Below are positions 4,856 through 43,456 of a stretch of 64,000 nucleotides of DNA, in pieces. This DNA comes from Desulfobulbaceae bacterium (GTDB taxonomy: Bacteria; Desulfobacterota; Desulfobulbia; Desulfobulbales; SURF-16), in assembly GCA_002868945.1 (NCBI GenBank), contig PKTX01000006.1, forward strand, positions 46,963-110,962. The letters are read 5' to 3'. Each line of letters starts with the position of its first letter. Within the stretch, counting starts at the first letter, position 1. Made by a program: the position numbers and the translations under genes. The notes beneath the pieces are model-generated. The model worked only from the letters and a program-made list of their open reading frames with translations. It made no database searches and was not told the DNA's origin.

Positions 4856-6796
4856 TCAGGCAGGGCTGAGGTGGGGGGAGGTGATGGGAATGGTTATGGT
4901 GAAAAGGGCGCCGCCCTCTGCGTGATTGCAACCGGTGACACTGCCGCCGTGATACTCGACAATCTTACGGACATTGGCCAGGCCGAGTCCTGTGCCGCCC
5001 GGCCGGCTGGTCATGAAGGGCTGAAAGAGGCGATGACTCTTGCTGCTGTCCAGGCCGGGGCCGCAGTCGCGCACCTCGATAATGGCCTGATCATGGGCGG
5101 AGATGGTGGAGCTGAGGCGGCTTGCTATGGCAATGGTGCTCTCCTCCGGCGACCATTGAATGGCGTTGAGCACAAGATTGGTCAGGGCCCGGATCATCAG
5201 TTCCCGGTCGATCTCAAGCAGGGTATCGCCCAGATTGTCATGGACCTTGATGGTGATCTTCTTTTCATCTCTGGGCCGGGCTATGGCATTAAAGGTGGCT
5301 TCAACAAGGGCGCTGAAGCTTGTGGGGCGGATCTGCAGGGTGAGCGGCCGACCATAGTTCAGGAGGTCGTTGAGCATATTCTCCAGCCGCCTGGACTGCT
5401 CCTGGGCAATGGTCGCCAGTTCGTGGAAGGCCGGGTTGGCGTCGCCAAGCTCCTGCTGAATGGTTTTTATGTTCATGTTGATGGAGGAGAGGGGATTGCG
5501 CATTTCGTGGGCAATGCTGGAGGTCAATTCGCCGATGCGGGCCAGGGAGGCAGTCTGGGCCAGGGCCCGTTCAATTTCGTTTTTGCGCAGCACCTGTTCG
5601 GTCTTTTTGCGTTCAGTGATATCGTTGGCCACGCAGATCAGGGCGTTGATACTGTTGTCGGCGTTGCGCATCACGGATCCGGAAAACAGTACGGGGATCT
5701 GGACACCATCCTTTTTCAGGAGGCAGATTTCCAGATTGGCGACATCCTCGCCTTTGCGCAGGGGGGCAAGGGCCTTGTCCTGAAAGAGGGGGCGCATCTC
5801 TTCGCAGACCAGTTCGGTGATGCGTAGCCCCAGAAGCTGGTCTTCGGACCGCTCAAGCAGGGAGGCGGTTTTGGCGTTGACCTTGGAGAGTTGCAGATTG
5901 GGGGTGAGCACCATGAGGGAGCCCGACATATTTTTGATGATGCTGTCAACATAATCGCGGGAGACCATGGTCTCCTTAAGTTCCTGGGTCATTTCCCAGA
6001 AGGAGAGGGCCAGGTTGTTGATTTCGTCCTTGTCGCTTCCCAGCGGCGGGCGGTAGACCTCTGCGTTTTTGGCAAAGAGTCGAACCATATTCTGGATACG
6101 GGCCAGGGGCTCGATGAGTTGTCGGCTGGCAAAACCGTGGCTGATCAGAATGGCGGTGATAAGAACCACCACGAAGAGCACACCGAGGAAGAGGGTGTTG
6201 ACCTGGGCATTACGCCGCTGCTCCTCAAGCTCGTTTTCCACCTTGTCGGTGAAGTATTGCGCCAAATGGCGCAGGTCCGTCAGGATGTCGGTCTGCATGC
6301 TGCCCAGTTGCTGGACCTTTTTTTGCAGGGCGATGGAGGTCTCAATGGCCTGGGTGCTCAGATAGACCTCGGCGGCAAGGCTGGAGAAGTCGTTATACTG
6401 TGCCATGAGGGCACTGATTTTGTCGGTCTCCTGTCTGAAGACCGAGGCGTCTTTGGCTATTTCGGACATCTCTTCAAAAAGCTCAATAATCCGACTGCTG
6501 AGGCGATTGCCTTGCACGGCCTGGTCGGCCTCGCCTGTGAGAAAGGCGTTCTCATATTTTTCGATCTGATCTTTATAGGCCTGCAGAGCCTGGTCGCTGA
6601 GCAGGGCCAGGGGCATCTCCACCTTTTGCAGGTGGTTGAGGCGGGCGGCCTGCCGGCTGTTGGAGTAAAAGCTGGAGAGCGTGGCGATGAAATAACCCAC
6701 CAGGGCGATGAGCACACAGGTCCACACCTTGCTGCGAATACTGCCGCTGCGAAACAGGCCGGCGATTGTTTTATGGGTCTCTTTCTTGTCAGCCAT
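4856..6796 (-). CDS. Membrane sensor histidine kinase (TM-sensor-TM-HAMP-PAS-HisKA-HATPase)
   Basis: H-box SLARIGELTSSIAHEMRNPLSSINMN; G-boxes ...VRDCGPGLD, GGTGLGLANVRKIVEYHGG; Met at 6796 overlaps the upstream stop. Confidence 0.9.
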   Translation of the reverse strand: MADKKETHKTIAGLFRSGSIRSKVWTCVLIALVGYFIATLSSFYSNSRQAARLNHLQKVEMPLALLSDQALQAYKDQIEKYENAFLTGEADQAVQGNRLSSRIIELFEEMSEIAKDASVFRQETDKISALMAQYNDFSSLAAEVYLSTQAIETSIALQKKVQQLGSMQTDILTDLRHLAQYFTDKVENELEEQRRNAQVNTLFLGVLFVVVLITAILISHGFASRQLIEPLARIQNMVRLFAKNAEVYRPPLGSDKDEINNLALSFWEMTQELKETMVSRDYVDSIIKNMSGSLMVLTPNLQLSKVNAKTASLLERSEDQLLGLRITELVCEEMRPLFQDKALAPLRKGEDVANLEICLLKKDGVQIPVLFSGSVMRNADNSINALICVANDITERKKTEQVLRKNEIERALAQTASLARIGELTSSIAHEMRNPLSSINMNIKTIQQELGDANPAFHELATIAQEQSRRLENMLNDLLNYGRPLTLQIRPTSFSALVEATFNAIARPRDEKKITIKVHDNLGDTLLEIDRELMIRALTNLVLNAIQWSPEESTIAIASRLSSTISAHDQAIIEVRDCGPGLDSSKSHRLFQPFMTSRPGGTGLGLANVRKIVEYHGGSVTGCNHAEGGALFTITIPITSPHLSPA

Positions 6797-8492
6797 TGGA
6801 TGGGGGGCCGGATTTCCTGTTGGGCGGTTCATAGAGGCAATAGGTTTTGCGGCCGCGGTTCTTGGCAAGATACATAGCCTGGTCGGCCCTGTTGATCAGC
6901 TGTTCGCCGACGCTGCCGTGGTCCGGGAACAGGGTAATGCCGATACTGACCCCCAGGTGGCAGGAGATAGAACCGAAGGTGTAGGGCACGGCCAGGCGTT
7001 CAATGATCTTTTCGGCGATCTTGACGGCATCCTCGGCGCAATGGAGGGTGTTGAGGATGACGGTGAATTCGTCACCACCCATGCGGGCCACGGTATCACC
7101 GGCCCTTACCAGGTTGTGCAGGCGCGCGGCGACGTTTTTGAGGACAAGGTCGCCGATGTCATGGCCCAGGTTATCGTTAATCGGTTTGAATTTGTCAAGG
7201 TCGAGAAAGAGCAGGGCAAACTTGTTGCCCGTGCGTCGCGCCTCGTGGATGGCCAGTTCCAGGCGATCAAAAAAGAGGTGGCGGTTCGCCAGGCCGGTGA
7301 GGGCGTCGTGCAGGGCCATCTGTTTGAGCTTCATCTCGGAATTCTTCAGCTCGGTGATGTCGTTGAGGACACAGACCAGGCCCATGACCTCGCCGGCCTC
7401 GTTATCCATCACCGAGCCGGAAAAATGGGCCGGAAAAATGCGCTCGTCCTTGGTGCGGCAGTTGACCTCAATATTGCGCATGGGCCATTGCGCCAACTGC
7501 TTTAAATTGGCAAGCGGCGCCTCTTTGCCGTCGGCAAAAAGCAGACGGCATTCCCGGTCGAGGAGTTCATTTTCCTCATAGCCGAAAAGTTCACAGGTCT
7601 GCTGATTAATCTTTTGAATGACGCCCTGCGGGCTGAGAACCACCAAGGCGCCCGACATGTTGCGGATGATGTTGTCCACATATTTTTTTGATACGGTGGT
7701 GGTCGTGAGGTCTTTGGTCATCTCGTAGAAGGCCGCAGCCAGCAGGCCCACCTCGTCCGAGGAGCCGTTGCCCTGCGGTTCAATAACCTCCTTGGCCACG
7801 GCAAAGCGTTTGATGTTTTTCTTGATGGCACTCAGCGGCGTAATCAGCAGCCGATCCGCGACCTTGTCGATAATGATCGCAGCGCAGAGCAGCACAATAA
7901 TAAAGAGGACGCCGAGAAAAAAGGTGGTGTGCAGGGCGCGGGTTTTGTTTCTCTGGATCTCTTCGATAAAGCTGGTGGAGAGATTCTTGTCCAGGGTGGT
8001 GAAGCGTTCCAGCAGATCGCGTTGAAGGCGCCCATGTTGCTGAATCTCTTTTTGCAGCTTCGGGGTCAGTTCAATGGCCTCATCGGCCCACGTTTCAATG
8101 GAGCGCGCCATTTTGAGATAGGCAAGGTAGTCCGCTTCCAACTTGTTGATCACCGCAATTTTCAGGGGAATCTGGGGGTTGCTCCGGGCGATCTCCTTGA
8201 CCTGGGTGAACTTGTCGAGCAAAACTTCGTTCAAGGCATCTACCTCATGGGCCAGCTCCTCTTCTCCGGTGAGAAAGGCATCCTCATGCCGGTCTATCTG
8301 GGTCTTAAAGGTGTGGAGCATGTCCGAACCCAGCGAAGCCACGGGAAACCAGGTCTCTTCCAGGTGGGAGAGGCGATCATACTGATCCATGTTGGAGTAG
8401 AAACTGGCAACCGTGGCAATAAAATAGCCGGCCAGTGACACGCACACGCAGAGCCAGATCTTGGTGCGAATACTTCCCCATCTCTTTTTCAG
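6789..8492 (-). CDS. Membrane diguanylate cyclase (TM-sensor-TM-PAS-GGDEF); probable non-ATG start
   Basis: ALTGLANRHLFFDRL...RAGDTVARMGGDEFTVIL; ORF track start (GTG, 8447) truncates the first TM; CTG at 8492 has a GGAGG upstream. Confidence 0.85.
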   Translation of the reverse strand: MKKRWGSIRTKIWLCVCVSLAGYFIATVASFYSNMDQYDRLSHLEETWFPVASLGSDMLHTFKTQIDRHEDAFLTGEEELAHEVDALNEVLLDKFTQVKEIARSNPQIPLKIAVINKLEADYLAYLKMARSIETWADEAIELTPKLQKEIQQHGRLQRDLLERFTTLDKNLSTSFIEEIQRNKTRALHTTFFLGVLFIIVLLCAAIIIDKVADRLLITPLSAIKKNIKRFAVAKEVIEPQGNGSSDEVGLLAAAFYEMTKDLTTTTVSKKYVDNIIRNMSGALVVLSPQGVIQKINQQTCELFGYEENELLDRECRLLFADGKEAPLANLKQLAQWPMRNIEVNCRTKDERIFPAHFSGSVMDNEAGEVMGLVCVLNDITELKNSEMKLKQMALHDALTGLANRHLFFDRLELAIHEARRTGNKFALLFLDLDKFKPINDNLGHDIGDLVLKNVAARLHNLVRAGDTVARMGGDEFTVILNTLHCAEDAVKIAEKIIERLAVPYTFGSISCHLGVSIGITLFPDHGSVGEQLINRADQAMYLAKNRGRKTYCLYEPPNRKSGPPSNG

Positions 8493-8932
8493 GGTATTAC
8501 CTCCATTTTGCGGACCTGTTTGTCAAAGGATTCCGCATCGATATAACTTATCGTGTTTTTGTGCAGGCTGACATATGATTTTACCGCTTCGTCATCCTTG
8601 ACGGCAAGGGGAAGCATGCTGGCGCCGCTGTAGAGGATTTTTTTCCAGTAGACGGAGAGTTGGGCCGGTGATTTCTGCAGCATGGTACGAGTGAAGGATT
8701 CATGGATGTCGTCGTTTTTGTTCATGATCAGGGTGATGGGGGAGCCGTCCGGCCAGAAACGTTCCTTGCCCAGGAAGATGTTCCTGACCTGGGCGGCCGG
8801 CATCTGCTTCACCGGGTTGTCCTTGTGGACCACAATGATAAACTCCGCCTCGGCACAGGCCGGTCTCCCCTGGCAGAGGAGGAGTGCCGACAGTACAGCG
8901 GCAAGGAGGTATGTGATTCGTGAAGGACGCAA
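8489..8932 (-). CDS. PstS/PBP-like phosphate-type substrate-binding protein
   Basis: Signal peptide then EFIIVVHKDNPVKQMPAAQVRNIFLGKERFWPDGSPITLIMN...FTRTMLQKS..QLSVYWKKILYSG. Confidence 0.8.
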   Translation of the reverse strand: MRPSRITYLLAAVLSALLLCQGRPACAEAEFIIVVHKDNPVKQMPAAQVRNIFLGKERFWPDGSPITLIMNKNDDIHESFTRTMLQKSPAQLSVYWKKILYSGASMLPLAVKDDEAVKSYVSLHKNTISYIDAESFDKQVRKMEVIP

Positions 8933-8956
8933 ATTTTTGCCTGGGATTTGGAGGGA

Positions 8957-10267
8957 TTAACGGTTGTCCGTGCTCTTTTCCGGGGGGGCGGCCTCTTTTT
9001 TGGACGGCATTCCCTTGGTGCCGCCGAAAACCGGATAGCTGACACTGAAGTCGCTCTCCAGGATCTGGATCCGGTTGTTAAACAAGTCGGCGACCAGCAG
9101 CCGGCCCTGGCGATCAACGGCAACGGCCGTGGGAAAGTTGAACCAGAGCGGCCCGGTGCCGCGGCCGCCGAATTCAAAAATAAGGCGCCCGGCCATATCG
9201 AAAATCAAGATGGTATGGCGCATGTAGTCGACGATGTAGATGCATTTTTTCTGTTCGTCCAGGGCAATGCCGCGCGGTCGGCTCATCTTGCCGGAGGAGC
9301 CGCCTTTCTGGCCGAAGGAGAAGAGGAAGTTTTCCCCGGGGCCATAGACATAGACCTTGCTGGTTTCTTCGCTGAGCAGAAAGATGCGGCCGTCGCTGTC
9401 AATGGCCAGATCGCGCAGCAGGACAGGCTGCAGGCCTTTGTCCTTCTCCTGGTCACGGGGGATGGCCCGACCTGATTTGGGCCGCAACTCGGCCGGCAGG
9501 CCCGGCGGTGCAGCTGAAGAGTCGGGCGCCGCAGTCTCCGGCGGCTCTTCCTTTTGGCCTTCCTGCATGCGGCTGAGGCGGTCGCGTCTCTCCCGGGAGC
9601 TTGCCGGTATCTCTATGTCGTCCCGGTAGAGCTTGTCCACAGGACGCAGCCAGTGGGAAAAATTGCCCTGGCTGTCGAGCACCAGGGCACCGCGGCTCTG
9701 ATTGCCGAGCAGATAGATATTGCCGTTTATGCCCACCTTGCCGTTAATGACCGAGAAGTTCTCAGCGCCTGGCATGCCTGCGAAGGTTATCTCTTTTTCC
9801 GGCAGGAAGGCACCGTTCAGGATGGTCAAACGACTGGGTTTATCCGCCGAGTTGTTCTGGCCGATGAGCACCCGGCCCTTGCGCGGGTCAAAGAAGAGGC
9901 ATTGCGGGTTGCCGATGTCGCGGCCGGCCCCCAGCACCAGATGGGGGAAGAAATCAGGGCCGTAGATGAGAATATTACCGCGGCCGCCGTTAATCACGTA
10001 GATCTCGCCGGTGTCTTTTTCGGTGGTGATGTTGACGGGAAAGCGCAGGGTTTTGCCCTGGTCGTCCCGGTCAAGGATGGTGACCAGACGCATGACCTGG
10101 CCCGGCGATTCCTTGGGAGGTGTTTCCGGGCCGATATCCGTGGCCGTGGCCGGCCGGACCGCCAGGCAGACGAGCAGCAGGGCGGATAACAGTGTCTGCC
10201 GGCCGCAGCTCTTTTGCGGCGGGCAGATGGCCCGGTGCTTGTTTCTGTTACGTTCTGAAAAAATCAT
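8957..10267 (-). CDS. NHL-repeat / six-bladed beta-propeller protein, exported
   Basis: Met at 10267 gives signal peptide LLSALLLVCLAVRPATA; NHL motifs FNFPTAVAVDRQGRLLVADLFNNRIQIL, MSRPRGIALDEQKKCIYIVDYMRHTILIFD; ORF-track N-terminus overlaps the cytochrome gene out of frame. Confidence 0.85.
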   Translation of the reverse strand: MIFSERNRNKHRAICPPQKSCGRQTLLSALLLVCLAVRPATATDIGPETPPKESPGQVMRLVTILDRDDQGKTLRFPVNITTEKDTGEIYVINGGRGNILIYGPDFFPHLVLGAGRDIGNPQCLFFDPRKGRVLIGQNNSADKPSRLTILNGAFLPEKEITFAGMPGAENFSVINGKVGINGNIYLLGNQSRGALVLDSQGNFSHWLRPVDKLYRDDIEIPASSRERRDRLSRMQEGQKEEPPETAAPDSSAAPPGLPAELRPKSGRAIPRDQEKDKGLQPVLLRDLAIDSDGRIFLLSEETSKVYVYGPGENFLFSFGQKGGSSGKMSRPRGIALDEQKKCIYIVDYMRHTILIFDMAGRLIFEFGGRGTGPLWFNFPTAVAVDRQGRLLVADLFNNRIQILESDFSVSYPVFGGTKGMPSKKEAAPPEKSTDNR

Positions 10268-10271
10268 TTTC

Positions 10272-11381
10272 TTAGTAGTGGCACTGGCTGCAGACCTGGC
10301 CGCCCAGGATATCGCCGATGAGCAGGAATTTATAATCTGAGCCATGGGGGTTATGGCAGCTCGTGCAGGCAAAGGATCTTTCCGGACGGCGCGGATCCTT
10401 GACGCCCTGCACCGGATGGCCGCCCACCGGATGCCCCTTTTCCACGCCCTGAAAGGAGATGTGACAACCCACGCAGAGTTCGTTGATCGGTTTATGGAGT
10501 TGAAAGCGGTTGTCGGCGGCATGCGGGTTGTGGCAGGCCGTGCAGCCGCCGCCCTTGATAATGCCGTGGATATAATAGGTGGAGCTGTCTTCGGCCAACA
10601 GGTCTTTTTTGTCGGTATGGCAGGCCACACACAGCTCATCCTGCCCCTTGGCCCAGAGCTGGGAGCGGTTCTGGTCGGCATGGGGGTTGTGGCAGACCGT
10701 GCAGTCGCCCGTGCCCACCGGCCCGTGGATATGGTCCATCTTCAACCAGGCTTTTTTGTTGACATGACACTGGAAGCAGCTTGATTCCACCTTGCCCTCC
10801 GGGATGGCGATGCGCTGCGGGTCCGGCGTTGTCTGGTGGCAGGAGCGACACTGCAGGGTGGCTGCCGGGCTGTGTTTCCAGCTCTCGGCGATGATATTTT
10901 TGTGGCAGGTAAAGCAGAGCTGCTGCGGATTGCCGGCAATGGGGGGTGCTTCCGGGAGCGGTTTTTCGTAATGACATTCGCTGCAGGCGTCGGGCAGTAA
11001 GGCCTGGCGGTGGAAGAGAAAGACTCCCTTTTCGTCGAAATTGACGTTGAGCAGGGAGCGCAGCGGCCGGTATTTCAGGATTATATCCTTATTGGTTGGG
11101 ATGAGCTCAAGGATGTTCTTGCCCGGCGTCAACGGCAGACGAAAGTGCAGGTAGTATTCACCTGACTTGGACTGGTGGACACCCTGCGGTGAAAAGAGGA
11201 GATCGTCCTTGCGGATCCTGGTGCGGCTGATGCTGTCATTGGCTTGATGCCGCACAATAAGATGGGTGGTGGGATGGCGGGCATAGATGGTCGCCTCAGG
11301 CGGGGGGGTCAGAATCTCGGCCGCGGCCCAAACCTGCTCCACCAAGAGCAGGAGGCTGAGTCCGACAGCCGCGCCAACCAT
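10272..11381 (-). CDS. Decaheme c-type cytochrome with N-terminal Ig-like region
   Basis: 10 CXXCH motifs with alternating HGPVGTGDCTVCHNPHA pattern; signal peptide MVGAAVGLSLLLLVEQVWAA begins at 11381. Confidence 0.88.
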   Translation of the reverse strand: MVGAAVGLSLLLLVEQVWAAAEILTPPPEATIYARHPTTHLIVRHQANDSISRTRIRKDDLLFSPQGVHQSKSGEYYLHFRLPLTPGKNILELIPTNKDIILKYRPLRSLLNVNFDEKGVFLFHRQALLPDACSECHYEKPLPEAPPIAGNPQQLCFTCHKNIIAESWKHSPAATLQCRSCHQTTPDPQRIAIPEGKVESSCFQCHVNKKAWLKMDHIHGPVGTGDCTVCHNPHADQNRSQLWAKGQDELCVACHTDKKDLLAEDSSTYYIHGIIKGGGCTACHNPHAADNRFQLHKPINELCVGCHISFQGVEKGHPVGGHPVQGVKDPRRPERSFACTSCHNPHGSDYKFLLIGDILGGQVCSQCHY

Positions 11382-11385
11382 AACG

Positions 11386-11571
11386 GCCCGTTGAAAAACT
11401 CCTGCGCTCGAAGGCCTCTCTTTGTTCGCTATCTGCTGATGCGGTGACAAAATTCGGTTCAGGGAAGCAAGTTTGCAGGACTCCGAAATGCCCCTGAACC
11501 CATGTGAGCGCTGCTTTTTTGCCTTATTTTTCCTGGCCTCAGCCGCGCTCGCTGCCTTTTTTAACGGGCTG
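11386..11571. repeat. MITE-like palindromic repeat, family B (GCCCGTTGAAAAA ... TTTTTAACGGGC)
   Basis: Terminal inverted repeats; about 70 bp internal match in inverse orientation to 49.69-49.78 kb. Confidence 0.75.
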
Positions 11572-11732
11572 ATAAGGAGTGTCGGATGATCAGACAAGAG
11601 GGGCGGATATGTTTCAGGGAGACGATGCGGCATACGGTTCATGGGAAGACCTTGATCTATGTAGTGAGGGAGCAATGTCCGGACCTTGACCGGAAAAGGA
11701 CCGATAAATGCCTCGCAGGTTGTGCGGTGCGG

Positions 11733-12770
11733 TTATTCGTCAAAATTGCTGCGGCGCAGCAGGAGGTCGTAGGACTTGCGGTATTCCTGGGCGGCCAATA
11801 GGTGGTTTTCCTGCATTTCATAAAGGGTGGCGAGGGCATAGTGCAGTTCGGGACTGCGGCTGTTGCGAAAGAGCATGGCCTGCAGGTCCTCAATGGCCAG
11901 CTCCACCTCGCCCTCATGGGCCGTGACCTGGGCGGCGCATATCTCGCCGCGCAGGGAGTCGGGGTCAAGCTCAAGGCCGCTGTCCAGGTTGTGGCGGGCC
12001 TCAACCATCTTGCCCTGTTGAAAGTAGAGACAGCCTAGCTCCACATGGGCCTCGGCCAATTTCGGGTTGCTCTCAAGGGCGGCCAGCAGTTCGCGTTCGG
12101 CCGCCTCAAGCTGGCCCTTGTGAATCAGCACCTCTGCCATGTTCATGTGACGGTTACCCTCCTTTTCCGTGGCCGGCTTATCCACCATCACCGGGTTGAG
12201 TTCCGCCTCCACCTGCTCTCTGGTTTTCTCGCCCAGCAGAATTTCCACCTCCCCCTTGAGGGTGGCGGTCATCTTTTTACTGTAGCCCATGCCGGCAACA
12301 GTAACGCCCTCCTTGTCCAACAGCAGAACCGAGGGCATGATATAAATGCCCAGCTCGCCGTAGGCCTGGTGGTTGAAGTCCAAATAGACCGGCAGAGTGA
12401 GACCGGCGGCCTCTGTGACCTCGGCAATGGTGGTGTCAGAGTCGCCCTGGGCATTGATCACCCGGACGGCGATATTTTTTTCATTTAAAAAGGGCAGCAG
12501 TTCTTCTATTTCGCTGAGCGCGGTGATGGCTCTTTTTTTCTTGGCCGCCAGATCGCCTCCCCAAAAGACCAGGATGGCCGGGGAGCCCTTCAGGTCATGG
12601 AGACGGATTTTGCTGTTGTCGGCCGGGTTGAGCAGAGTGGCGTCCGGAATGGCATCTCCCACTGCCAGGCTGCGAAAGGGGAATGATTCCGCCACTCCGG
12701 AGGAGAGAAAGATGTAGAGGGAAAAGACAAGGGTAAGGAGAACTATTTTACATAATATACGGGTGTGCAT
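11733..12770 (-). CDS. Thioredoxin-fold (redoxin) domain lacking CXXC, fused to TPR repeats; exported
   Basis: IRLHDLKGSPAILVFWGGDLAAKKKRA...YIMPSVLLLDKEG; C-terminal TPRs; N-terminal signal/anchor. Confidence 0.78.
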   Translation of the reverse strand: MHTRILCKIVLLTLVFSLYIFLSSGVAESFPFRSLAVGDAIPDATLLNPADNSKIRLHDLKGSPAILVFWGGDLAAKKKRAITALSEIEELLPFLNEKNIAVRVINAQGDSDTTIAEVTEAAGLTLPVYLDFNHQAYGELGIYIMPSVLLLDKEGVTVAGMGYSKKMTATLKGEVEILLGEKTREQVEAELNPVMVDKPATEKEGNRHMNMAEVLIHKGQLEAAERELLAALESNPKLAEAHVELGCLYFQQGKMVEARHNLDSGLELDPDSLRGEICAAQVTAHEGEVELAIEDLQAMLFRNSRSPELHYALATLYEMQENHLLAAQEYRKSYDLLLRRSNFDE

Positions 12771-12880
12771 GTTGTTTTTCCTCTGGCCTGGCGACTAGTT
12801 TCGGTGACATTGTTTCCGTGCGCGTTTTCTACTTCGATTGGCTGCTACGGCGTTAACTTACGGTGGCGGCGATTTCGTTA

Positions 12881-13095
12881 GGCCATCTTGGGTAATTGCT
12901 CTTTCGGAGTCTCGCAGGCTCGCTTACCTGGCCGATTATTTTCGTTGCTACGAAAATAAAAACCCTCACATATGTTCGATATGTTGCACCCCAGGGGCAC
13001 TTCTTTCAGGGCGTGCTTCTTTTTTCGCACTCCTTGATGTCGAACCGATACGTGAGCCTGCGAGACTCCGAAATGAGCTATTTCCGGACAGATAC
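12881..13095. repeat. Composite copy of dispersed palindromic repeat (family A left end, C-type right end)
   Basis: ggccatcttgggtaattgc..tttcggagtctcgcaggctcgcttacc ... gagcctgcgagactccgaaat..ctatttccggacagatac. Confidence 0.75.
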
Positions 13096-13575
13096 CTGCC
13101 GGACACCATACCTTTTTTTGCCGGTGGCGCCCAGGTTCGCTTTTACCCTTATCACGATATTAAATTAGCGGCATAAAGGCAAATGGCGGCCACGACGACA
13201 CGCCGAAGAGAGGAGCGATAACCGCGCAAGGCGGCGGAGGGGTGCGCATCGTGGCAGGCGGCTGTGCAGCCAAGCTCGGCCCACGACAAAAAGCGCGGAG
13301 GAATAAACGAGGAGGAGGGGTGGAACATGATTTGCATAACAAAACTGAATGGGGAGGGATGCCATTCTTCCAAACTCATTACCTGATCCTGCTTCCTGCT
13401 GTCAAATGGAAAGTGGAGTGTAACTTGCTGAGATGGAGTTTTTTCTGTCCTCTGCTGATGCCGGTCGGCTGCCGTTGTTGACCGGACCGGCAAGTTTCTG
13501 TACAGTTAAAAAAAATAATCATTCAGGCGATATGCCGCCTGAGCGGGCTTAAATGGATAAGGGAGTTAGGGGTTT

Positions 13576-14928
13576 ATGAAAATTCTGATTGTTGATGATG
13601 ATCAGGCACTGTGTCGTTCTCTGCAGGTGCCCTTGGGGCTCAAGGGGCACGAGGTGCATATGGCTCTTTCAGGCCAGGAAGGCATTGCAGAGGCGGCGGA
13701 ATTTCGGCCCCAGGTGGTTTTTCTTGATATTAACCTGCCGGATCAGAGCGGCCTGGAGACCCTTCCCGGCATTCTCGAATTGCCCTGTGAGCCCACCGTG
13801 GTCATCATGACCGGCGAGTCTGATAATCTGATCGCTGTGCAGGCCATGCGCAGCGGCGCCTTTGACTATCTGCGCAAGCCGCTGGAGATCGATGATATCT
13901 ACACTATGCTGGCCAGGGTGGCGTCCCATCGCGGCCATGAGGCCGACCTGGCGACGGCATGTGCTGCTTCCGGTAGCCAGGGCGCCCAGTCAAGCATGGT
14001 GGGTACCCACCCTGACATAATTGACCTGCATAAGAAGATCGGCCTGCTGTCGCGCAGCAAGGTCACCGTGCTTATTCAGGGGGAGAGCGGCACCGGCAAG
14101 GAGCTTGCCGCCCGCATTCTCCACGATGCCCGTGATCCCGACAAGCCCTTTGTTGACATCAATTGCTCGGCAGTTGTCGCCACCCTGCTGGAGTCGGAGT
14201 TTTTCGGCCATGAAAAGGGGGCCTTTACCGGGGCGGATCGCCTCAAAATAGGCAAGCTGGAGTATGCCGGGGAAGGCACGGTCTTTTTCGACGAAATCGG
14301 TGATATGCCCCTGGGGCTGCAGGGTAAAATATTGCGCGTCCTGCAGGAAGGCGAGTTTGTTCGGGTGGGCGGCCTGGAGAGCATTCCCTTTCGGGCCCGT
14401 TTTGTCTCCGCCACCCATTGGGACCTGGAAAAACTGGTGCAGGAGGGCAAGTTCAGAAAAGACCTCTTCTACCGGATCGCGGTTTCTACTCTCTACCTGC
14501 CGCCGCTGCGGGAGCGGCGCCAGGATATTCCGTTGCTGGTGGATGTGCTGCTCAAGAAGATTGCCCGGCAGCTGCAATGTCCCTTGCCGTCCATTAGCGA
14601 GGAGGCTATGCAGAAGCTGATGAGCCATGCCTGGCCCGGCAATGTCCGGGAGCTGGAAAACGTTTTGACCCGCTCCGTGGCTCTGGCCACCGACAGTGTG
14701 CTCACCGCGGCTGAAGTTTGCCTGGAGCAGTCGCACCGCGACCATGCCGGACCGGTGCAGGAGGCGCCGGTTACCCTGGCAGAGGCGGAAAAGCGTCATG
14801 TTGAGCTCACCCTCAACCAACTCCAGTGGAATATCACCAAAACCGCCAAACAGCTGGCGGTTTCCCCCACCACCCTGCGCAAGAAGATTGCCGACTATAA
14901 CATCGTCAATCCCTGTCGGCAGGGCTAA
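13576..14928 (+). CDS. NtrC-family sigma-54-dependent response regulator
   Basis: REC (ILIVDDDQALC, VFLDINLP, LRKPLEI), GESGTGKELAARIL, GAFTGA, FFDEIGDMPLGLQGKILRVLQ, C-terminal Fis HTH. Confidence 0.93.
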   Translation: MKILIVDDDQALCRSLQVPLGLKGHEVHMALSGQEGIAEAAEFRPQVVFLDINLPDQSGLETLPGILELPCEPTVVIMTGESDNLIAVQAMRSGAFDYLRKPLEIDDIYTMLARVASHRGHEADLATACAASGSQGAQSSMVGTHPDIIDLHKKIGLLSRSKVTVLIQGESGTGKELAARILHDARDPDKPFVDINCSAVVATLLESEFFGHEKGAFTGADRLKIGKLEYAGEGTVFFDEIGDMPLGLQGKILRVLQEGEFVRVGGLESIPFRARFVSATHWDLEKLVQEGKFRKDLFYRIAVSTLYLPPLRERRQDIPLLVDVLLKKIARQLQCPLPSISEEAMQKLMSHAWPGNVRELENVLTRSVALATDSVLTAAEVCLEQSHRDHAGPVQEAPVTLAEAEKRHVELTLNQLQWNITKTAKQLAVSPTTLRKKIADYNIVNPCRQG

Positions 14929-14932
14929 TTTT

Positions 14933-14968
14933 GGCCAGTTTCTGGCTGGCAGTGGCCAGAAACTGATT
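14933..14968. promoter_or_regulatory. Putative paired activator sites GGCCAGTTTCTGGC / GGCCAGAAACTG
   Basis: Inverted 11-mers CAGTTTCTGGC ... GCCAGAAACTG just after the EBP stop; the same 15-bp motif pair occurs at 43211-43247. Confidence 0.5.
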
Positions 14969-15274
14969 AATTTCCACAGCGCCCCCTTTTCTTAATGGCA
15001 AAGCGTCGCAGTGGGCTGAAGAGCCTCAAAAAAAGCGGAATTTGCGGGATATTTCCAGAAGATATGCAGGTTTGGTCCTGCCTGACATGTTGATGTGTCT
15101 GCGAGATGGGTCGACAGGGGTGGTTTCGGTTCGATTCTGGCCCGGCTGCTCAACAGTTTCTGGCGCGGCAAATTGTCGCATCCGACACCGCTTTGCGGAG
15201 AGGTTGCGAGTTAATGTCTTGGGGCACTAAGGTTTGCCGGTTTTTTTCGGCGGAACGGCTCGTTGTTTTGGGTG

Positions 15275-15290
15275 CGGCATGGTATTTGCT
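15275..15290 (+). promoter_or_regulatory. Putative sigma-54 promoter CGGCATGGTATTTGCT
   Basis: GG-N10-GC with GGCA-N-G and TTGCT, matching consensus TGGCACG-N4-TTGCW at most positions; 176 bp before the OmcS-like gene. Confidence 0.6.
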
Positions 15291-15465
15291 GTATAATATG
15301 GGCAGGAGTTGAGCGTTCCGCCTTCCCGGCAAGAGTGATGGGGCGGTCGGCTGCGGGAGGGAGCAGACGGCTGGTGCGATGCGGAGACAACGTGAGAGAG
15401 AGGGGTGCTTGTTTGAAGCAGCCAGTGCAGTGCAAGGAATAATGAGATTACAGGGAGGATTTATC

Positions 15466-16578
15466 ATGAAAAAAAATGTATCAAGACATATGCTGACGGC
15501 CATTGTGGCCCTCAGCGCTGCCGTGGCCCTGCCGAGCCTGGCCATGGCCAAGGTGAGCGGTGCCTGCGGTGACTGCCACACCATGCATAACAGCCAGGAT
15601 GGCGCGGCCATGGCCAGTACCGGTGTTTTTGGCACCAGCACGCCTGCCGATGACAGCGCCAATGGCGCCCTGCTGCGCTATGGCTGTGTTGGTTGCCATA
15701 CCGGTGATAACTCCGGCGGCGATGTGCCCTTTGTGCTGGCCAGCACAGCGCCGACCTATGGCACGAACACCCTGGCCGGTGGTAACTTTTATTGGGTTAC
15801 GACTACCGATAATACCGGTCACAACGTCTTGGATGTGGCCAATGGAGATGGTGCGCTTGGGGACACTCCTCCAGGCGGCGCGGCCCTGACAAGTCAGCTG
15901 ACCTGTGCCGGCACCATGGGCTGTCACGGTGACCGCAGCGAGGAAGATCAGTTCGGCGCCGTGGCCGGCGGCCATCATGGCCCTGGTAATGCGGCCACCA
16001 ACGGCTATGTGTCCGGATCCGGCACTGATATGTCGGATGCCTTCCGCATGCTGGCCGGTATCGAGGGGATCGAGGATGCCGACTGGGAATATACGGCCGA
16101 CGTTGCTACCGGTGACCACAATCTCTACAAGGGTGCCTCGCGAACTGATGAGACGGATGACGCCACCACCATCAGTTCCCTCTGTGCCCAGTGTCATGGC
16201 GAGTTTCATAACGGCGTGGGCAATGTCAGTAGCGCCACCTTCGGTTCTCCCTGGGTGCGCCACCCCACGGATTTTGATATGAGCGCCCTGGCCACCACCT
16301 CCGAGTATGCCGGATATACCGACTACAGCCTGGAGGCACCTGTGGCCGTTGACACCATGGATGGCTCAACGGATCTTACCGCTATCAATCATGCCGGTGG
16401 CCTGGGGGATGCGGCCAAGACAGGCGACTCCATTGTTACCTGTGTCTCCTGTCATCGGGCCCATGGCTCTCCTTATGCCGATCTGCTGCGTTGGGACTAC
16501 AGCACCATGGATGCCCATAACGGTACCACCGGTAATACCGGTTGTTTCAACTGTCATACCACCAAGGATGATGCATAA
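15466..16578 (+). CDS. Small multiheme cytochrome, OmcS/OmcE-like (paralog A)
   Basis: Signal peptide; CGDCHTMHNSQ, CVGCH, LAGGNFYWV, GHNV, CAGTMGCH, CAQCH, CVSCHRAHGSPY, CFNCH. Confidence 0.85.
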   Translation: MKKNVSRHMLTAIVALSAAVALPSLAMAKVSGACGDCHTMHNSQDGAAMASTGVFGTSTPADDSANGALLRYGCVGCHTGDNSGGDVPFVLASTAPTYGTNTLAGGNFYWVTTTDNTGHNVLDVANGDGALGDTPPGGAALTSQLTCAGTMGCHGDRSEEDQFGAVAGGHHGPGNAATNGYVSGSGTDMSDAFRMLAGIEGIEDADWEYTADVATGDHNLYKGASRTDETDDATTISSLCAQCHGEFHNGVGNVSSATFGSPWVRHPTDFDMSALATTSEYAGYTDYSLEAPVAVDTMDGSTDLTAINHAGGLGDAAKTGDSIVTCVSCHRAHGSPYADLLRWDYSTMDAHNGTTGNTGCFNCHTTKDDA

Positions 16579-36850: not shown

Positions 36851-36866
36851 TGGCATGTCCCTTGCG
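36851..36866 (+). promoter_or_regulatory. Putative sigma-54 promoter TGGCATGTCCCTTGCG
   Basis: TGGCATG-N4-TTGC, near-consensus; upstream of the porin at 36989. Confidence 0.65.
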
Positions 36867-36929: not shown

Positions 36930-36988
36930 CGCTAAGTAAAGAATTTAGGCAGCACTAACTTTTATTTTTTAATGCAAGGAGATGTGTG

Positions 36989-38335
36989 ATGAAGAAAATG
37001 GCTGTGTTGTTGGCTGGTCTGACTCTGGCGGCCTCCCCTGTGGCGGCAAACGAGTATGATGACCGCTTGTCCTCCCTGGAGGCCATGGTGGAAAAATTAA
37101 CGGGTTCCATTGTCGAGAGGGATAGAACCATTGATCAGTTGCAACAATCCCTGCGGCGTCTGGACGCCTCTGAGCAAACAACACCGGCGGCGGCCCGGCA
37201 GGAGGCGGTGGTGGTGAGCAAGGATGAGGTGCGCCGGATAGTGGCCGAGTTCAACGACAAAAGTCCAGAACCGGATTTTTTGTCAAGGTTCTCTTTTGGC
37301 GGCTACGGTGAAATCCATGCCAATATCGCCGAAGGCGATGATGCGGGCGGCGATTCAAACGACCAGCTTGATATCCACAGGTTTGTCACCTATGTTGGCT
37401 ATGATTTTGCCGATTGGCTGAAGTTTACCTCTGAAATCGAGATTGAGCATGCCATGGTTTCCTCAGGCGACGGCGGCGAACTGGAGCTTGAGCAGGCCTA
37501 TCTCGATTTTCTGCTCAGTGACTACGCCAATATCAGGGTGGGCAGGACGCTGGTGCCGGTGGGGTATCTCAACCAACACCATGAACCCACCACCTTTAAC
37601 GGCGTGGAGCGGCCAAACTTCTACAAGTATGTTGTGCCCACGACCTGGTGGTCGGACGGGATCGGTCTTTTCGGCGCCCTTGGTGATATCACCTATCAAC
37701 TCGCCTATCTTGGCGGCATGGACGGTTCCGGGGTGAGCAGCTCCGGTATCCGTGGTGGTCGGCTCAAGGAGAGGCCCAGTCTCAACGACCCTGCCTATGC
37801 CCTGCGTCTTGATTATACGCCCTTTGCCAGTCGTGATCTTACGCTTCGCTTGGGGACTTCCCTTTACTATTCCGGGCTTGATAATGGCAACAAGGGCAAC
37901 GATCCCGGCGTAGAGGCGGATCTGGCCATCTATGAGGCGGATTTCAGCTTCAGCTATGGCGATCTTGACCTGGTGGGGGCCATGGCCTGGGAGCGGATCG
38001 ATGGTGCCGAGAGTTTGGCGGCCGGTGTGGCTGAGGAGATCTTCGGTTATTATCTGGAGGCAGGCTATCATGTCATGCCGTCCGCCTGGCAGACCGGCAA
38101 GTTGGCCAATGCCGACGCCGTGTTCTTCGTCCGCTATGATGAGTATGACACCCAGGCGAACATGCCCACGGGCCAACTCGCTGATGCCGCGCAAGATAGG
38201 CGTGATTTGACCCTGGGTGTTTCTTTCTGGCCAACCACCAATGTGGTGGTCAAGGCTGACTATCAGATCCTCAGGTCTGATGCCGACGAAGACCCGGACA
38301 ATACCATCAATTTCGGTATTGGCTGGCAGTTCTAG
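36989..38335 (+). CDS. Outer-membrane porin (OprP/OprO-like) with N-terminal coiled coil
   Basis: Signal peptide, coiled coil DDRLSSLEAMVEKLTGSIVERDRTIDQLQQ, FSFGGYGEIHANI, NIRVGRTLVPVGYLNQHHEP, C-terminal ...INFGIGWQF. Confidence 0.85.
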   Translation: MKKMAVLLAGLTLAASPVAANEYDDRLSSLEAMVEKLTGSIVERDRTIDQLQQSLRRLDASEQTTPAAARQEAVVVSKDEVRRIVAEFNDKSPEPDFLSRFSFGGYGEIHANIAEGDDAGGDSNDQLDIHRFVTYVGYDFADWLKFTSEIEIEHAMVSSGDGGELELEQAYLDFLLSDYANIRVGRTLVPVGYLNQHHEPTTFNGVERPNFYKYVVPTTWWSDGIGLFGALGDITYQLAYLGGMDGSGVSSSGIRGGRLKERPSLNDPAYALRLDYTPFASRDLTLRLGTSLYYSGLDNGNKGNDPGVEADLAIYEADFSFSYGDLDLVGAMAWERIDGAESLAAGVAEEIFGYYLEAGYHVMPSAWQTGKLANADAVFFVRYDEYDTQANMPTGQLADAAQDRRDLTLGVSFWPTTNVVVKADYQILRSDADEDPDNTINFGIGWQF

Positions 38336-42219: not shown

Positions 42220-43014
42220 CTACTTGTTCAGATCATGGGCAATGCCATGGCACTGGCCGCATTGAGGGAAGTTTTTGTGCATAACCTCGGGATGCGGTTC
42301 ACCGTGACAGGTGGAGCATTGCGGGATCATTTTGTGCGTCTCCTGGTGACAGGTGGCGCAGGTCAGTTTGGCATGTCGGGCCGGGTTGTCCTGCAGCTGC
42401 CTGAGGACATCACCATGACAGGCGGCACACTGCGAGGAGGGCACGTCGTTGGGATAGGCGACTTGGCGCGGCATATGCGCCTTGTGGCAGGTCAGACAAT
42501 CCTGCTGTTGCATATCCTTGCTGTGCGGGGAGTGACAATGCATGCAGTAGGGAATCATGCCGTGCTGGCTGCGATGACAGGTGGAACAGCTCACCTGGGT
42601 ATGTTTGCTTTCATACTGCTGAAGCTGGGCCATCTGGTCGGTGTGGCAGGTCAGGCAGGGCTCGGTGATGTTTTCGCCGATGCTGATAACCAGAGGCGTA
42701 TGAGGATTGTCGTGGCAGGAGAGGCAGTTGGTCAGCTCAAAATGGGCCGTGCCTTCATGGCAGTTGCTGCAGCTAGGGATAATGTCGCTGTCAGTGGGGG
42801 GATGGCCGTCGTGACATTCGATACAGGTCACCTCGGTTCTATGAGCCTCGCCGCTGCTGGCAATATCGCTGGGGGCCTTATCATGGCACTTGATACAGTC
42901 ATCCGGGGTCAGGGCGGCGCCATGGGCGGTGACGACACTGGCCAGCAGGGTCAGCAAGAAAGGGCCGGCCATGAGGCGACCAAGACGTTGTAGACGGTGA
43001 TAGAGATGCTTCAT
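42220..43014 (-). CDS. Dodecaheme c-type cytochrome
   Basis: 12 CXXCH motifs in 264 aa; signal peptide FLLTLLASVVTAHGA. Confidence 0.92.
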   Translation of the reverse strand: MKHLYHRLQRLGRLMAGPFLLTLLASVVTAHGAALTPDDCIKCHDKAPSDIASSGEAHRTEVTCIECHDGHPPTDSDIIPSCSNCHEGTAHFELTNCLSCHDNPHTPLVISIGENITEPCLTCHTDQMAQLQQYESKHTQVSCSTCHRSQHGMIPYCMHCHSPHSKDMQQQDCLTCHKAHMPRQVAYPNDVPSSQCAACHGDVLRQLQDNPARHAKLTCATCHQETHKMIPQCSTCHGEPHPEVMHKNFPQCGQCHGIAHDLNK

Positions 43015-43110
43015 TGTTCTCCCCTCTTTAGTTTAAGGAAAATATTTAGATATTTTAAAAATATAGACAACTGGTCTATGCGGCGCGTGGCTTTTTATTA
43101 CACGTTTTGT

Positions 43111-43124
43111 GCCAGATTATCGCC
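43111..43124 (-). promoter_or_regulatory. Possible sigma-54 promoter (minus strand CGGCGATAATCTGGCA)
   Basis: GG-N10-GC spacing upstream of the dodecaheme gene; weaker consensus match than 15275 or 36851. Confidence 0.35.
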
Positions 43125-43210
43125 GTTCGCCAAGGGACTGCTATCGTCTTGAAAAAGGGTGCTATTTTTTTTTATGATGGGGCCGGCGGCCTGAGGCGGT
43201 TTTTTGTTTC

Positions 43211-43247
43211 GGCCAGAATCTGGCCTGGCCGTGGCCAGTTTCTGGCC
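43211..43247. promoter_or_regulatory. Putative paired activator sites GGCCAGAATCTGGCC and GGCCAGTTTCTGGCC
   Basis: Two 15-bp palindromes with centres 22 bp apart; same motif as 14933-14968. Confidence 0.5.
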
Positions 43248-43456
43248 AGGTCACTGTGGGCTAACAAGCTGCTTTGATTATGATAAATGGAGAGAGGGCC
43301 GGGCTGGGTTTGGTTTTTTGTGGTCGGCTTGGCGCTGCTGCACCTCATCTGCCGGCCGCTTCATGTAAGGTGGGGCACCTGTGCTCTGCGGGAAGAAAAG
43401 AGGCGGAGCACTCGCTACTTTCTCCTGTTCATCCGCCCTGATAATGTTTATGTTCA

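Follow-up and report, generated by a model that had tools for sequence, protein, structure and literature searches.

We consider it highly probable that the region between a gene for an NtrC-type response regulator and a gene for an OmcS-like hexahaem cytochrome holds a sigma-54-dependent promoter together with upstream activating sites for that regulator, and that the switch includes a probable second target elsewhere in the window (the whole 64,000-nucleotide stretch of DNA analyzed). The conserved promoter and paired sites make the region a likely on-switch for extracellular electron-transfer machinery, with which these sulfur bacteria would pass electrons outside the cell. Little is known about how sulfur bacteria control production of cytochrome nanowires and outer-membrane conduits. 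Here, regulator, sites, promoter, and second target can be named together, and the motif can be scanned in other genomes. The features are listed in Table 1.

Table 1. Features of the window; sites, targets, and the partner kinase are predictions from sequence.
Feature	Position	Strand	Description
Candidate partner histidine kinase	4856..6868	-	Sensor, PAS, HisKA, HATPase
GGDEF protein	6789..8447	-	Sensor + PAS region in common with kinase; 36% identity over ~400 aa, E = 4e-76
Small PstS-like periplasmic-binding protein	8489..8932	-	PF12849 at 26.8 bits, slightly below cut-off of 27
NtrC-type response regulator	13576..14928	+	Receiver (PF00072), sigma-54 AAA+ with GAFTGA (PF00158), Fis-type HTH (PF02954)
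Distal regulator site 1 (putative)	14932..14948	.	TGGCCAG-TTT-CTGGCTG, TGGCCAGTTTCTGGCTG; read directly, pair kept in 11/11 regulator-linked loci
Distal regulator site 2 (putative)	14953..14969	.	TGGCCAG-AAA-CTGATTA, TGGCCAGAAACTGATTA; read directly, conserved pair
Proximal regulator site (putative)	15150..15166	.	TCAACAG-TTT-CTGGCGC; centre 116 bp from -24 start
GTCGCA block	15175..15180	+	12 bp past proximal CAG-N3-CTG; invariant and equally spaced in window, L068, L083
Sigma-54 -24/-12 element	15275..15290	+	CGGCATG-GTAT-TTGCT, CGGCATGGTATTTGCT; predicted transcription start ~15300
OmcS-like hexahaem cytochrome (gene A), putative target	15466..16578	+	Six CX2-4CH motifs; ribosome-binding site AGGGAGGA
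12-haem cytochrome, probably periplasmic, second putative target	42220..43014	-	Downstream of the 43210-43248 pair
Weak sigma-54-like element	43099..43114	-	TGGCACAAAACGTGTA; -12 reads GT
Second-target site (putative)	43210..43226	.	CGGCCAG-AAT-CTGGCCT
Second-target site (putative)	43232..43248	.	Perfect palindrome TGGCCAG-TTT-CTGGCCA; centre 22 bp from 43210 site

The regulator belongs to the NtrC family (bEBP) by its receiver, AAA+, and HTH domains, all of which exceeded the Pfam cut-off, and by the presence of GAFTGAD, GESGTGKE, and GTVFFDEIG (sigma-54 contact loop, Walker A and B). Orthologues were found in single copy in 11 genomes. Alignment revealed the recognition helix, SPTTLRKKI, to be invariant among regulators with sites at their loci. 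The sigma-54-contacting loop reads GSFTGA, not GAFTGA, in L057, L061, L062, L088, and L093, and the promoters of these lineages are the closest to the sigma-54 consensus. Upstream of the regulator gene lie a sigma-54-like TGGAACATGATTTGCA (13321-13336, + strand) and a sigma-70-like TTGACC-N17-TACAGT with CAAGTTTCTG (13478-13506, + strand), both with counterparts in G068.

The kinase in Table 1 is probably the partner of the regulator, as suggested by its conserved neighbourhood. The divergent operon of G068 (L197), like that of Desulfurivibrio alkaliphilus (G004, L192), retains a kinase homologue, and homologues of the PstS-like protein adjoin the regulator in G068 and in a distinct set of loci, family f1. 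Through the kinase and the GGDEF protein, a common signal could plausibly feed both transcription and c-di-GMP.

Gene A is an OmcS homologue, judged by homology and its six haem motifs. A single-sequence search of the PDB missed OmcS, and a family profile was needed; built from 16 relatives, it matched OmcS (6EF8) with E = 7e-25. The cluster downstream of gene A encodes multihaem cytochromes, a second OmcS-like protein, and possibly a beta-barrel, for which there was no Pfam match.

Direct reading of the window placed two CAG-N3-CTG palindromes, 21 bp apart from centre to centre, behind the regulator gene. The preliminary description had located them at 14933-14946 and 14954-14968, about 21 bp apart, which our reading reproduced to within 1-2 bp. 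In its fullest form the motif is TGGCCAG-N3-CTGGCCA, and with up to three mismatches this palindrome occurs 27 times in the window, compared with 7.2 +/- 2.9 in shuffles. The genome scan proposed with the motif recovered 11 copies of the exact 11-mer in 3.7 Mb, compared with 4 for the reversed control. Four of the 11 fall within two intergenic regions of the window; the others, among those inspected, are mostly in coding sequence. Measured to the first base of the -24 element, the centres of the distal pair are 334 and 313 bp away, a distance that exceeds the usual range and counts against the reading as a sigma-54 switch.

Additional sites had been described between 15135 and 15164, about 110-140 bp upstream of the promoter, and this claim held in part. 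The 11-mer CAGTTTCTGGC at 15154-15164 was confirmed by direct reading, and it marks a single proximal site that is equivalently placed in the window, L032/L068, and L083 (113-116 bp from -24). The half-site TTCTGGCC is present at 15135, but because it scored low with the site matrix and lost its register when aligned with the two closest relatives, we did not count it as a regulator site. As for the GTCGCA block (Table 1), TTGTCGCA also precedes the promoter in L044 and L062. Between the proximal site and the promoter, no IHF-like site was found when one mismatch to the consensus was allowed. The idea that site distances are held to one helical face was also tested and was not convincing.

The preliminary description had placed a sigma-54 promoter at 15275, and direct reading showed an element there with the GG-N10-GC arrangement and a match to YTGGCACG-N4-TTGCW. 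It scored 14.5 bits, whereas no opposite-strand site exceeded 3.3 (shuffle p ~0.013). This score is at the low end of the set (range 13.7-18.7), and the -24 begins with CGG rather than TGG, which counts against the sigma-54 reading. Across the whole window, the sigma-54 pattern with two mismatches was found 27 times, with 29 expected by chance; support for the element is thus drawn from its conservation and not from this count. A -24/-12 element (GG-N10-GC) was present in every relative with the regulator, and GGCATG-N4-TTGC was invariant in the alignment of the window, L032/L068, and L083, where the sites were largely kept against a background mean identity of 67%. The genome (G000) also encodes sigma-54 (rpoN; PF04552 at 9e-65). 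The top sigma-54 score in the window, 14.6, belongs to TGGCATGTCCCTTGCG at 36851-36866 (+ strand), ~120 bp upstream of the Porin_O_P gene at 36986-38335, a place where we saw no CAG-N3-CTG pair.

To compare OmcS-like loci, we fetched 80 from named genomes plus further ones from the order. With duplicates removed and 700 bp of upstream sequence required, 11 loci with the regulator adjacent and 74 without it were compared, a strict pair being defined as two CAG-N3-CTG with 11-15 bp between them. The pair was found at all 11 regulator-adjacent loci and at 0 of the 74 others (Fisher p = 4.7e-14, which overstates independence because the 11 loci share ancestry). A sigma-54 score of at least 13 was reached at 11 of 11 regulator-adjacent loci versus 4 of 74 others, with 0 on the opposite strand. 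In an unbiased count of dyads over the 11 gaps, CAG-N3-CTG came out on top, with 29 copies where 1.05 were expected. Among 4+4 dyads, GGCA-N6-TTGC was shared by the most lineages (10 of 11, where shuffles reach 4-6). The earlier proposal that these are enhancer sites of the neighbouring regulator is supported by this co-occurrence and by the invariant recognition helix, and it is very probable that this regulator is the one that the paired sites serve.

In every lineage the pair starts soon after the regulator stop codon, with centres 21-23 bp apart. At short-gap loci the pair itself would be the near enhancer, its nearest site lying 95-152 bp from -24. At long-gap loci (window, L032/L068, L083), where the pair sits ~310-330 bp from -24, one additional site is found at 113-116 bp. 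Many matches to a loose CAG-N3-CTG pair in 147 genomes came from distant families and resembled coding sequence, so the pattern by itself is not diagnostic outside an intergenic context. In L021, L068, and L083 the 5' leaders are long (~165-420 nt across the set) and carry GC-rich inverted repeats, e.g. CAGCCGG..CCGGCTG, with no Rfam match. No RNA family in Rfam matched the window, and the matches in relatives did not rise above chance level. At six fetched family f1 loci (L171, L175, L178, L181, L184, L187), a regulator homologue is accompanied by kinase, porin-like, PstS-like, and sensor genes, and pairs with the same 22 bp spacing precede genes for secreted proteins without a Pfam match.

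Other explanations of these elements were considered. The OmcS-like gene could be transcribed from a sigma-70 promoter, as an exact TATAAT hexamer at 15292-15297 overlaps the predicted switch. We rejected this as extremely unlikely: the hexamer has no acceptable -35 and is missing here from the two closest relatives and other lineages, whereas GG-N10-GC is found in all of them, including 11 of 11 regulator-linked loci. The inverted repeat at 14936-14965 could likewise act in the regulator mRNA, as a 3'-end hairpin or intrinsic terminator, instead of binding protein. It lies immediately after the regulator stop codon, its 13-pair stem was flagged as terminator-like, and RNA folding gave z-scores of -3.7 (window) and -6.3 (L057). 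However, an intrinsic terminator should combine a conserved stem with a T tract, and the tail in the window, ATTAATTTCC, is a poor T tract, while the second site of L068, CAGGGTCTG, keeps the palindrome and loses the stem (z = -0.8). A terminator would also not account for direct-repeat pairs at an equal 22 bp spacing in family f1, or for the palindrome recurring at 15150 and 43210-43248, remote from any 3' end. Predicted DNA dimer sites account for all of these cases and a terminator for some only, making the latter highly unlikely as the sole explanation; in some lineages a hairpin may serve as both site and terminator.

The sites could also be real and yet bound by another regulator, the neighbouring one being a bystander, and a first look found 51-124 candidate homologues of the regulator per genome. 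Against this stands the restriction of the pair to loci where the regulator orthologue adjoins. The family f1 pairs, too, lie near a regulator homologue, whose recognition helix is identical. We therefore regard a different binding protein as very unlikely and retain the reading in which the adjacent regulator acts through these sites on a sigma-54 promoter.

A second tandem pair, at 43210-43248, which is not among the sites listed in the preliminary description of the promoter region, suggests a regulon wider than the OmcS-like gene. It contains the only exact copy of the full 17-bp palindrome in the genome, at 43232, and probably brings the 12-haem cytochrome gene under the same regulator. 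In G068, G085, and G050, a sigma-54-like element likewise accompanies one or two sites at the orthologue of this gene. Its promoter is weaker on paper because the -12 reads GT, which is kept within the genus (G068 and G085) and is GC in G050; this atypical -12 counts against the sigma-54 switch reading. In G002 (L175) a homologue of the 12-haem gene lies directly upstream of the kinase-regulator genes.

From these observations we infer the following order of events. The kinase, probably that at 4856-6868, would phosphorylate the response regulator, whose Fis-type HTH dimers would bind the CAG-N3-CTG palindromes. The regulator would thereby occupy the pair two helical turns apart just past its own gene, as well as the proximal site ~116 bp before the -24. 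Its AAA+ oligomer would reach sigma-54 RNA polymerase at 15275-15290 by DNA looping and open the promoter, so that the OmcS-like gene, probably along with the downstream cluster, would be transcribed from near 15300. The regulator probably acts on the 12-haem gene in a similar way, via its own site pair. More tentatively, and as less likely than not, all of this may form one envelope-sensing system of Desulfobulbales-type sulfur bacteria with two outputs from a single signal: the kinase-regulator would turn on nanowire, conduit, and periplasmic cytochromes via CAG-N3-CTG enhancers, and the related GGDEF protein, with its matching sensor, would increase c-di-GMP. In that case, OmcS-like clusters would commonly be controlled by private modules of kinase, bEBP, and sigma-54, the cluster induced in D. 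alkaliphilus on iron oxide among them.

The mechanism itself is the standard bEBP/sigma-54 switch. The apparent novelty is in the motif, in its co-conservation with the regulator, and in the connection with OmcS-like clusters; neither motif, regulon, nor target seems to have been described before. We found no paper on the regulator or motif in the open-access literature, most subscription papers being outside this scope. The Oet/OmcS-like clusters of syntrophic sulfate reducers combine OmcS-like and multihaem cytochromes with a porin-type conduit, and the window cluster is similar in general make-up (PMC10553843). That study covers gene content and evolution, and none of the terms sigma54, two-component, and transcriptional regulator occurs in its main text.

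In Geobacter sulfurreducens, the PilR-pilA, dcuB, and fdnG regions resemble the window in having a receiver-AAA+-Fis HTH activator, with the -24/-12 target promoter directly past the activator gene and palindromes upstream (PMC2725144). Unlike these, the window's predicted targets are OmcS-like and 12-haem cytochromes, and its motif is CAG-N3-CTG in 21-23 bp pairs. Near omcS (GSU2504), GSU2506-GSU2507 encode a sigma-54-dependent response regulator and a kinase, as in the window (PMC10599522, PMC11077965). Compared by description, GSU2506 is annotated with a PAS domain and GSU2507 is a Cache/HAMP-type kinase, unlike their counterparts here. Deletion of the GSU2507 kinase has a published effect on omcB and pilA transcripts (PMC10599522, PMC11077965).

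A further comparison is with D. alkaliphilus, a culturable test system whose extracellular iron respiration has been profiled by transcriptomics. Its OmcS-like genes DA_402, DA_756, and DA_765 are reported as upregulated during iron-oxide respiration with sulfide, DA_402 more than 100-fold (PMC12545173); the words regulator and promoter do not occur in the main text of that paper. G004 was identified as this species by the published DA_402 qPCR primers, which map to 7126-7209 of L224, in the gene after a TGGCACGCCGTTTGCT element. In the L224 region (8200-15388), a near-consensus sigma-54 element precedes each of two OmcS-like genes; a divergent phosphonate-binding-like protein, a kinase, and an NtrC-type regulator are also encoded there, and the palindrome that recurs is another one, CCAAATCGATTTGG / CCAAACCGATTTAGG. 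DA_402 differs from the window in its consensus TGGCACGCCGTTTGCT, divergent kinase, other NtrC-type regulator, and other palindrome. A second G004 locus (L192) matches the window in regulator, site pair, and sigma-54 element. There, the regulator (G004:C1:908106-909440), the pair CAGAAACTA / CAGTTTCTG (23 bp apart, one mismatch in the first site), and TGGCATGCAACTTGCT precede an OmcS-like gene at C1:906477-907655, which, from gene order and numbering, is probably DA_765.
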